22,590 nucleotides of DNA from Alphaproteobacteria bacterium. GTDB taxonomy: Bacteria; Pseudomonadota; Alphaproteobacteria; Sphingomonadales; Sphingomonadaceae. The notes beneath the pieces were generated by a model. That model saw only the letters and a program-made list of their open reading frames with translations, had not been told where the DNA came from and ran no database searches. The stretch spans positions 1 through 22,590 of the forward strand of contig JAQGLD010000020.1 of NCBI GenBank assembly GCA_028293055.1. Direction: 5' to 3'. Below are positions 10,531 through 13,801 of the stretch, in pieces. Each line of letters opens with the position of its first letter. Position 1 is the stretch's first letter. The position numbers were made by a program, and so were the translations under genes.

Positions 10531-10560
10531 CTTGACGTTGACGTGAACGTTAAGTACCTT
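10531..10560 (+). promoter_or_regulatory. ACGT-repeat palindromic operator overlapping the merR promoter
   Basis: Bases 10531-10554 form a 24-bp palindrome with 20 of 24 positions symmetric; the left half is CTTGACGTTGAC and the right half GTGAACGTTAAG. Three ACGT boxes sit exactly 6 bp apart (10535, 10541, 10547). TTGACG (10532-10537) fits a -35 box, and TACCTT (10555-10560) lies 17 bases further as a weak -10. The palindrome therefore fills the -35 and spacer, the usual place for MerR-family binding. ACGT-rich palindromes are, from memory, typical of LiuR-type MerR regulators of acyl-CoA catabolism. The predicted transcript would begin at the merR ATG. Confidence 0.65.
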
Positions 10561-10566
10561 TGCGAG

Positions 10567-11001
10567 ATGCCGCAGACCGCGCTCCACGCCGATTTCGAAT
10601 CGCCCGAATCCGGCGGCAAGTCTTACGGGATCACCGATCTGTGCGACGAGTTCGAGGTCACGCCCCGGGCATTGCGCTTCTACGAGGATGAGGGCCTGAT
10701 CGCGCCGGAGCGGCAAGGCCTGGTTCGCATCTACAGCTGGCGCGACCGAGCTCGCCTCGCCTGGATCCTCCGCGGCAAGCGAGTCGGTTTCAGCCTGGCC
10801 GAGATACGCGAGATGATCGACCTCTACGATCTCGACGACAATCGCGCCGCGCAACGCCGGGTGACGATGGAGAAATGCCGCGCGCGGGTGGGCCTGCTCG
10901 CCAAGCAGAGGCTCGACATCGATGCGACCATCGCGGAGCTCGAACAATTCATCTTCATGGTCGAGGAAGCCGACGCGGCGACCCGTTCGCGGGGCGAGTG
11001 A
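10567..11001 (+). CDS. MerR-family transcriptional regulator
   Basis: A 144-residue DNA-binding regulator. The winged helix-turn-helix spans about 20-88 ([10 protein letters not shown], then [16 protein letters not shown], then [15 protein letters not shown]). A helical dimerisation segment (about 92-135) follows. It lacks the cysteine pattern of metal- or redox-sensing MerR proteins, having only Cys26 and Cys104. ATG 10567 is chosen because the conserved domain starts soon after and the promoter/operator lies immediately upstream; the frame is open earlier but runs antisense-like through the lipoprotein gene. It is the first gene of an operon with the methyltransferase (7-base gap) and the acyl-CoA dehydrogenase. 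By analogy with LiuR-type regulators it probably controls its own operon in response to an acyl-CoA. The ligand is not shown by the sequence. Confidence 0.88.
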
Positions 11002-11008
11002 GGCCGGC

Positions 11009-11968
11009 ATGGCTAGCCGCGCCATGCCCCCGGAGCCGGCCGCCGATTCGCTTCGGCTGATCCTCGGCGACTGCCGCGAAAGGATGCGCGAGCTCGCCGA
11101 CGACAGCATACATCTGATCCTCACCGACCCGCCTTATTTCCTCGACGGCCTCGATAGCGCCTGGCGCAAAGGCAAAGGCGACACGCCGCGGGCGACCGGC
11201 ACGGTCGGCGCTCTCCCGGTCGGAATGCGCTTCGATCCTAAGCAGGGGCCGGCGCTCCAGGCCTTCATGCGCGACGTGGCCGCGGAATGGATGCGGGTGC
11301 TCGCGCCGGGCGGGTTCGCCCTCGTCTTCAGCCAGCCGCGCCTCTCGCACCGCATGGCGGTCGGGATCGAGGATGCAGGCTTCGAGATACGCGACCTGCT
11401 CGCCTGGCGGTTCACCCGAAAGGCGCAGTTCAAGGCCTTCTCCCAAGATCATTTCGTCCGCAAGATGCCGCTCGACGAGGATGGCAAGGCGGCCCTGATC
11501 CGGTCGCTCGAGGGGCGGAAGACTCCGCAGCTGCGCCCGCAATTCGAAGCGGTCGTTCTCGCCCAGAAGCCGCGCGAGGGCACGTTCGTCGCCAATTGGC
11601 AGACCTGGCGGACCGGGCTGATCGATGCCGGATGCAGTCTCGACGGCGGCGCGCCTTCCACCGTGATGACCGTCGAGAAGCCCGATTCGGTGGAGAAGGG
11701 GCCGGCCGGAGGCCATCTGACGCCCAAGCCCGTCGATTTGCTCGCCCACCTCATCCGCCTGTTCAGCGAAGAGGGCCAGATGGTGCTCGACCCGTTCATG
11801 GGATCCGGATCGACCGGAGTCGCAGCCTTGCGCACCGGGCGCCGATGCATCGGCATCGACAAGGAAGAGGCCTATCTAGAGATCAGCCGCCGCCGCGCGG
11901 CCGAGGAAGCGGAACGCGCCGCCGCTGCCCCGCCACCCGATTCCGCGCCCACCGACAGGAAAGCCTGA
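11009..11968 (+). CDS. Orphan beta-class DNA methyltransferase (probable N6-adenine)
   Basis: A 319-residue S-adenosylmethionine-dependent DNA methyltransferase of the N6/N4 family (PF01555-like). Motif order is catalytic DPPY (40-43) first, then a central variable region (about 110-235) that should hold target recognition. [10 protein letters not shown] (236-245) and the SAM-binding [10 protein letters not shown] (261-270) follow, an order that defines the beta class. DPPY favours adenine-N6 methylation. ATG 11009 has GAGG five bases upstream; ATG 11024 is an alternative. The Ala/Glu-rich tail (about 296-319) looks disordered. No restriction endonuclease is nearby, so it is an orphan. It lacks the long C-terminal domain of CcrM, so it is unlikely to be that cell-cycle enzyme. 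It sits 7 bases after merR and one base before the acyl-CoA dehydrogenase, sharing their transcript. Target sequence unknown. Confidence 0.87.
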
Positions 11969-11969
11969 G

Positions 11970-13769
11970 ATGCCGACTTACACCGCTCCGGTCCGCGAGA
12001 CCCGCTATGTGCTCGATCACGTCCTCGGGCTCGATCGATACTCGAACCTTCCCGGCTTCGAGAATGCGACTCCGGATCTTGTCGAGGCGATCCTCATCGA
12101 GGGCGGGCGGTTCGCCTCCGAGGTGTTGGCGCCGCTCAATCGGGTCGGGGACGAGAAGGGCTGCGTCCGCCACGATGACGGCTCGGTGTCGACCCCTCCC
12201 GGGTTCAAGCACGCCTGGGATCAGTTCGTCGCCGGCGGCTGGACGACCCTCTCGGCGCCCGAGGAATATGGCGGCCAGGGGCTGCCCCAGGTGATCGGAA
12301 CCGCGGTCAGCGAATATCTGCTCTCGGCCAACCAGGCGTTCGAAATGTATCACGGCCTCACCCAGGGCGCGGTCGCCTCGATCCTGGTCAAGGGTTCGGA
12401 CGCGCAAAAGGCGACCTACATTCCCAAGATGGTGTCGGGGGAATGGACGGGTACGATGAACCTGACCGAGCCGCATTGCGGCACCGATCTCGGCCTGCTC
12501 AAGACCCGGGCGGATCCGCAGGCCGATGGCAGCTACAGGATCAGCGGCACGAAGATCTTCATCTCGTCGGGAGAGCACGATCTCTCCGCGAACATCATCC
12601 ACCTCGTCCTCGCCAAGATCGCCGGCGCTCCGGACAGCGTCAAAGGCATTTCCCTGTTCATCGTCCCCAAGTTCCTGGTCAACGACGACGGGACCTTGGG
12701 CGATCGCAATGGCGTGGTCTGCGGTTCGATCGAGGAGAAAATGGGCATTCACGGCAATTCGACCTGCCTGCTCAACTATGACGGGGCAACCGGCTATCTG
12801 GTCGGCGAGTCCGAAAAGGGCCTCGCCGCGATGTTCATCATGATGAATGCTGCTCGGCTCGGAGTCGGGCTCCAGGGCCTCGCCCAGGGCGAAGTCGCCT
12901 ATCAGAATGCGGTCATCTACGCGAAGGACCGCAGGCAGGGCCGGGCGCTGGTCCCGGACCAGCGCGATCCCGACGCCAAGGCCGATCCGATCATCGTCCA
13001 CCCCGATGTCCGGCGCATGCTGATGGAGATGAAGGCGTTCAACGAAGCGGCGCGGGCGCTCGTCCTGTGGGGCGCGCTGCAGGTCGATATCGGCCGCCGC
13101 GCCCAGACCGAGGAAGAGAAGGAGGCGGCTTCGGACCTGCTCGGCCTGCTCACTCCGGTTATAAAGGGCTATCTCACCGACCAGGGCTTCAAGACCGCGG
13201 TCGACGCCCAGCAAATCTATGGGGGCCACGGCTACATCCGCGCATGGGGCATGGAGCAGTTCGTCCGTGACGCGCGCATCGCGCAGATCTACGAGGGTAC
13301 CAATGGAATCCAGGCGCTCGACCTGGTCGGCCGCAAGCTCGGTGCCAATGGCGGCCGCGCGATCCAGGCCTTGTTCAAGCTGATCGGCGAGGAGGTCGCA
13401 GCCGCGAAGGTCGGCGACGGCGAATCGGCGAAGCTCGCGAGCGCGCTCGAAAAGGCTAATGGTGACCTCCAGACCGCGACGATGTGGCTGATGCAGAACG
13501 GCCTCACCAATCCGAATAATGCCGGAGCGGCGGCTTATCCCTATATGACCCTGATGGGGATCGTGAGCCTGGGCCTGATGTGGCTGCGCATGGCGAAGGC
13601 GAGCAGTGCAGCGCTCGCCGACGGCGTGGAGGATGCGGATTTCCACAAGGCGAAGCTGGTCACCGCGCACTTCTTCGCCGAGCGGGTGATGTCGGAAACG
13701 GGATCGCTACGCCGCAAGATCGAAGCGGGTGCGGAGAGCTTGATGGCGCTGCCGGCGGAAGCGTTCTGA
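11970..13769 (+). CDS. Large acyl-CoA dehydrogenase (DmdC-like length class)
   Basis: A 599-residue flavoprotein that introduces a trans-2 double bond into an acyl-CoA thioester and passes electrons to an electron-transfer flavoprotein. An N-terminal helical domain is followed by the FAD-binding stretch [17 protein letters not shown] and by [24 protein letters not shown]. The likely catalytic base is Glu442 in IYEGTNGIQ. About 120 extra C-terminal residues (from 475) place it in the roughly 600-residue class that includes 3-methylmercaptopropionyl-CoA dehydrogenase (DmdC) and long-chain enzymes; the chain specificity cannot be told. It is the last gene of the merR operon, starting one base after the methyltransferase stop, and is followed by a strong terminator. 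The length and motifs appear complete. Confidence 0.93.
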
Positions 13770-13775
13770 TTTAGG

Positions 13776-13801
13776 TCCTCCCCGTACCGGGGAGGATTTT
13801 T
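13776..13801 (+). terminator. Rho-independent terminator of the merR operon
   Basis: A perfect 9-bp stem, TCCTCCCCG (13776-13784) with CGGGGAGGA (13788-13796), closes a three-base loop and is followed by five T. It lies seven bases after the acyl-CoA dehydrogenase stop. An outer inverted repeat TTAGGT/ACCTAA (13771-13776 and 13802-13807) flanks it, and the prfC stop codon lies inside the right arm. The element may therefore serve both convergent genes, though there is no T-run on the minus strand. Confidence 0.85.

Follow-up and report, generated by a model that had tools for sequence, protein, structure and literature searches.

Three genes follow one another on the forward strand of the 22,590-nucleotide stretch of sphingomonad DNA analysed here (the window). 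The first encodes a MerR-family regulator of 144 residues (10567..11001; ATG at 10567, stop at 10999–11001; Pfam MerR_1 and MerR-DNA-bind), the second a solitary β-type N6/N4 DNA methyltransferase of 319 residues (11009..11968; ATG at 11009, stop at 11966–11968), and the third an acyl-CoA dehydrogenase (ACAD) of 599 residues (11970..13769; ATG at 11970, stop at 13767–13769; Pfam Acyl-CoA_dh N, M, 1 and C). The reading frames leave 7 bases between merR and the methyltransferase gene and a single base between the latter and the ACAD gene, which is the spacing given in a preliminary description of this DNA.

That description had also placed one operator in front of the genes and one terminator behind them, and the sequence statistics agree with both. 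The operator-like near-palindrome TTGACGTTGACGTGAACGTTAA (10532..10553, forward strand) lies 5′ of merR and has 3 mismatches to its own complement; the pattern, at up to 3 mismatches, gave 0 matches in 100 shuffles. The site is kept 5′ of merR in congeners, being identical to the common sequence at 9 of 20 loci and differing from it by at most 5 of 22 bases at all 20. An intrinsic-terminator hairpin with a T run (13773..13801, forward strand) lies between the ACAD gene and the convergent RF3 gene. The hairpin (about 13773–13799) folds at −19.6 kcal/mol (z −3.61) and none of 200 shuffles was as good, while a simple terminator consensus scan, with 1 hit against the 2.2 expected from shuffling, gave no excess over chance. 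It is likely that merR, the methyltransferase gene and the ACAD gene are co-transcribed. A promoter scan detected none for the methyltransferase gene, nor for the operon itself; since the scan was blank even for the operon, the methyltransferase gene may still have a separate promoter.

The solved structure nearest to the ACAD is 6ijc (751.5 bits). We take the nearest solved ACAD structures to be 6ijc and the Pseudomonas-type long ACADs, not isovaleryl-CoA dehydrogenase, and in this the locus differs from the LiuR system. It is similar to that system in its MerR-family regulator, near-palindromic site and ACAD neighbour, the three features on which the name LiuR-like is based. The accessible part of PMC5343134 presents LiuR as a member of the MerR family that regulates the use of branched-chain amino acids. 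One homologue of the window MerR (P0219) is identical to another (P0127) in its second half, save for one residue, and very different in its first half, as a recombinant or chimera might be.

The methyltransferase protein

The methyltransferase matches the Pfam N6_N4_Mtase family with 109.7 bits (cut-off 26.7) over profile positions 1–219 of 221. Its motifs stand in the β-type order, with motif IV (DPPY, residues 40–43) before motif I (DPFxGSG, residues 261–267) and a ten-residue motif I segment at residues 261–270. The DPPY and DPFxGSG columns are invariant, or almost so, in an alignment of relatives. The motifs are intact, and the enzyme is presumably active. The stretch between the motifs, where the recognition part is expected, varies little among the aligned relatives, which suggests that they have a common target site. 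An AlphaFold2 model built from 40 aligned sequences has a mean pLDDT of 82.8, with low values at residues 46–69. The closest fold in the PDB is that of CcrM (6pbd, Foldseek TM 0.59), and N4-cytosine enzymes of the same fold are among the Foldseek matches. In β-class methyltransferases, DPPY makes N6-adenine the likelier product, and for the window enzyme N6-adenine is more likely than N4-cytosine as the target base.

We compared the protein with CcrM, its top match both by sequence and by Foldseek. The two share the motif order and DPPY, but the identity in the Foldseek alignment is only 26%. Identity with CcrM was rejected, since the window protein scores 72.1 bits against an NCBIfam CcrM equivalog cut-off of 830. 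A recent alien gene was likewise ruled out by composition: the GC3 of the methyltransferase gene is 0.834, within the range of 0.788–0.865 for 20 other window genes, and its codon usage is host-like.

Distribution, empty sites and further copies

We surveyed overlapping genome samples of the genus, family, order, class and phylum. Of 26 genus genomes, 1 has a close methyltransferase. In the family sample, 248 of 249 genomes gave at least one match at E ≤ 0.001, mostly to the C-terminal third; beyond the window's own protein, only those in G002 (37%) and G053 (36% identity, encoded elsewhere on its chromosome) exceed 62 bits. These same three genomes are the only ones among 396 in the order sample with a match at E ≤ 1e-30. 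The close form occurs in 1 of the 396, unlike CcrM, which the accessible part of PMC11514494 describes as kept by most Alphaproteobacteria. Six of 385 genomes in the class sample have a match at E ≤ 1e-40, the window's own included and the other five at 49–60% identity, and the phylum sample gave a match in 1 of 398. The nearest relatives in named genome contigs, one Spirochaetes and one gammaproteobacterial record, are about 50% identical. In these samples the distribution of the methyltransferase family is patchy.

Of 60 relatives searched with the ACAD, 57 gave a match, and 30 loci were fetched, one of them the window. The methyltransferase match is absent from all 29 others, 20 of which are congeners. 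An upstream merR adjoins the ACAD gene in 28 of the 29, the exception being L063, and purF is nearby in 18 of the 20 same-genus loci, as it is in the window. The gap between merR and the ACAD gene measures 11–172 bp in the 20 same-genus loci versus 968 bp in the window. Five further genus genomes lack such a locus, three having no ACAD match and two a partial one. Thus, the pairing of MerR and ACAD pointed out in the preliminary description is a conserved unit, adjacent in all 20 congener loci, while the three-gene order that it had proposed to look for among sphingomonads is found in none of the 20; a three-gene operon conserved across sphingomonads is ruled out by these empty sites. By this comparison, the methyltransferase is outside the ancestral merR–ACAD unit, and its absence from every congener locus with the same pair indicates that the regulator and the ACAD do not need it.

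Further copies were found by protein search. Among the best 120 homologues listed, one is 99% identical (P0002) and seven are 78–86% identical (P0003–P0009). P0002 lies on a 118,455-bp contig with a MerR identical to that of the window (P0121), the two being matched by equal contig size; the ACAD is not linked there. A 3,796-bp metagenome contig apparently carries a methyltransferase (P0004), a MerR (P0124) and an ACAD (P0259) together, an indirect grouping that relies on the same contig size recurring in three best-120 lists. Identities to the window are 87.6% for the methyltransferase (residues 16–297), 87.5% for MerR and 87.0% for the ACAD; over its whole length P0004 is 83.7% identical, both ends being variable. 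The near-equal divergence of the three genes, about 12–13%, fits the prediction of joint inheritance. The window MerR and P0124 both end in GE after an EEAD motif, an ending found in none of the 20 empty-site congeners. A MerR tree (125 columns) did not resolve this methyltransferase-linked tail as one clade; the tail took 4 changes in the group table and 5 with all rows. The remaining copies (P0003 and P0005–P0009) had no same-size contig match with the listed MerR or ACAD proteins. The preliminary description had counted confinement to one strain, with atypical composition, against its own idea; we found instead a 99% copy elsewhere, the three genes apparently on a second contig, and host-like GC3.

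Partners, fusions and nesting in the methyltransferase family

A quick tree of 83 selected sequences unites the window methyltransferase and P0002–P0009 in a nine-member group that has support. We searched 34 family loci for partner genes, a set in which two viral contigs are counted twice and some members are distant. An HNH-type gene lies beside the methyltransferase relative in four of the 34 (L033, L078, L086 and L098), and the same holds for two Thermus plasmids. Five of the six HNH-type partner proteins (L033:3323-4180, L078:5025-5702, L086:5857-6534, L098:4445-4963, L101:3557-4375 and L102:2680-3528) align, with conserved CxxCGAxEG, GH and GNxIPQCxxCN motifs. In PHROGs, the L033 protein has a weak likeness (E 1.6e-4) to endonuclease VII. 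Neither Pfam nor PADLOC gave a match for the four partner proteins tested, and the proteins tested against NCBIfam belong to none of its families. They are possibly restriction enzymes, perhaps of an undescribed kind. Seven viral contigs, among them two pairs with near-identical scores, have another unnamed protein, of the L066 type, in the neighbourhood of the methyltransferase. On the viral L066 contig itself, an ORF resembling a cytosine-5 DNA methyltransferase (L066:3959-5986) lies directly 5′ of the methyltransferase relative and, by eye, has an apparent intein-like insert. P0099, a 64% relative named Allosphingosinicella sp., groups in the tree with the viral-contig member L100, and this grouping suggests that the same genus, or one close to it, received a second lineage of the family, with phage as a possible carrier.

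Five of the best 120 homologues listed (P0070, P0078, P0082, P0085 and P0119) carry an in-frame N-terminal piece of an IS1595-type transposase. The piece is a zinc ribbon ahead of the methyltransferase domain, joined in P0070 by the start of a DDE domain. In the tree the fusions are spread over four distinct groups, P0085 and P0119 being together in one of six rows. P0025, judged by eye, seems to retain no more of such a transposase than its first residues, for which Pfam gives no match. We found no report of a methyltransferase fused to an IS1595 transposase in the open-access literature, including the accessible part of PMC5704250. The window gene was also considered as a passenger gene of the IS1595 family and rejected, with no transposase and no terminal repeats around it.

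The HNH-type neighbours and transposase fusions of these relatives would be expected if the window gene were the remnant of a local restriction-modification (R-M) system, or of a mobile element (an IS1595-type one, for example), that had shed its other parts. However, the 7- and 1-base junctions leave no room for such parts, and the two ends of the gene have no matching repeats. The zinc ribbon has no match in the window's own genome, in a search whose control was positive in 6 of 14 genomes and above the cut-off in 2, and neither partner type of the relatives matched in that genome, which is 82% complete, in searches run without a positive control. We therefore consider a remnant of this sort unlikely. 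The earlier statement that no restriction partner is present holds for the adjacent genes, MerR and ACAD; for the whole genome it may hold, the searches there covering these two partner types.

The window is not the only case of nesting. In G523, which belongs to another lineage, a 60% relative (L076:4040-7968) is flanked by two transporter genes of its own strand, for a binding protein and a permease, with spacers of 22 and 52 bases. The three loci where both transporter genes are seen together (L104, L105 and L109) have no methyltransferase between them; L106, L107 and L108 show no permease within the available stretch and were left outside this count. Two more relatives follow a gene of the same strand, one starting 23 bases after purH and the other about 280 bases after purC; these placements are raw, unadjusted for operon density. 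The G523 relative inside a transporter operon indicates that operon capture occurred at least twice in the family, but nesting is not a rule because other members stand alone or with a partner. One could imagine that the subfamily is an operon hitchhiker, landing repeatedly and almost base-exactly between co-directional genes under the operon's signal, which here would give a metabolite-gated methylome kept across species. We regard this as doubtful; a literature search on gene insertion into operons returned nothing on point.

Origin and working of the nested gene

We propose, as the probable course of events, that one lineage of this sphingomonad genus gained a solitary β-class methyltransferase in the space between merR and the ACAD gene, and that the gene has since been inherited with the operon. 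The source would be an R-M-related family, some members of which adjoin endonuclease-like genes. The operon, itself conserved, would have received the gene ahead of a species split and carried it through at least one. It would be translated from the operon's own mRNA, the orphan enzyme would methylate the chromosome at some site, and any tie between methylation and acyl-CoA status would be a consequence of where the gene landed. Both the horizontal origin and the single acquisition are inferred. According to the accessible part of PMC4176335, the usual source of solitary methyltransferases is the transfer of genes that are already solitary, more than the decay of R-M systems. The window gene is similar to the transferred solitary genes described there in its R-M homology, lack of an adjacent partner, patchiness and viral-contig relatives, but differs in its setting, a conserved operon of the chromosome without any surrounding mobile element.

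The preliminary description had offered two options, and an accidental but stable insertion fits best given the empty sites and the apparent retention. Alternatively, methylation may be gated by metabolism: MerR would sense acyl-CoA or a related metabolite and control both the methyltransferase and the ACAD, the methylome would mirror the status of fatty or branched-chain acids, and selection would have kept the arrangement for that. The tight packing behind one conserved operator-like site and the apparent joint retention of the three genes on a second contig are in keeping with this. However, the same pair lacks the methyltransferase at all 20 congener loci, and retention by itself would also be expected of an orphan enzyme that is neutral or of general use; gating of this kind seems improbable to us. 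It is formally possible that the methyltransferase was ancestral at the locus and was then lost many times, and its composition, which bears no foreign sign, and the lack of insertion marks around it (no element ends, no target duplication) would agree with that history. An assembly chimera or contamination, with the methyltransferase foreign to the operon, is very improbable: the assembly is fragmented, 82% complete and 4.4% contaminated, and the gene is absent from this locus in every other genus genome searched, but the flanking genes are intact with gaps of 7 and 1 bases, the 99% copy accompanies an identical MerR on the 118,455-bp contig, the three genes apparently recur on the 3,796-bp contig, and the codon usage of the gene is host-like.

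With a solitary methyltransferase acquired once and inherited with the operon, as we propose, the locus would be a clean example, provided by nature, of an orphan methyltransferase under a metabolic promoter, for which the 20 empty sites in congeners are ready controls. It lets one ask whether gene placement alone yields regulated methylation. The methyltransferase family, in turn, points to HNH-type partners without a name and to repeated fusions with a piece of a transposase.
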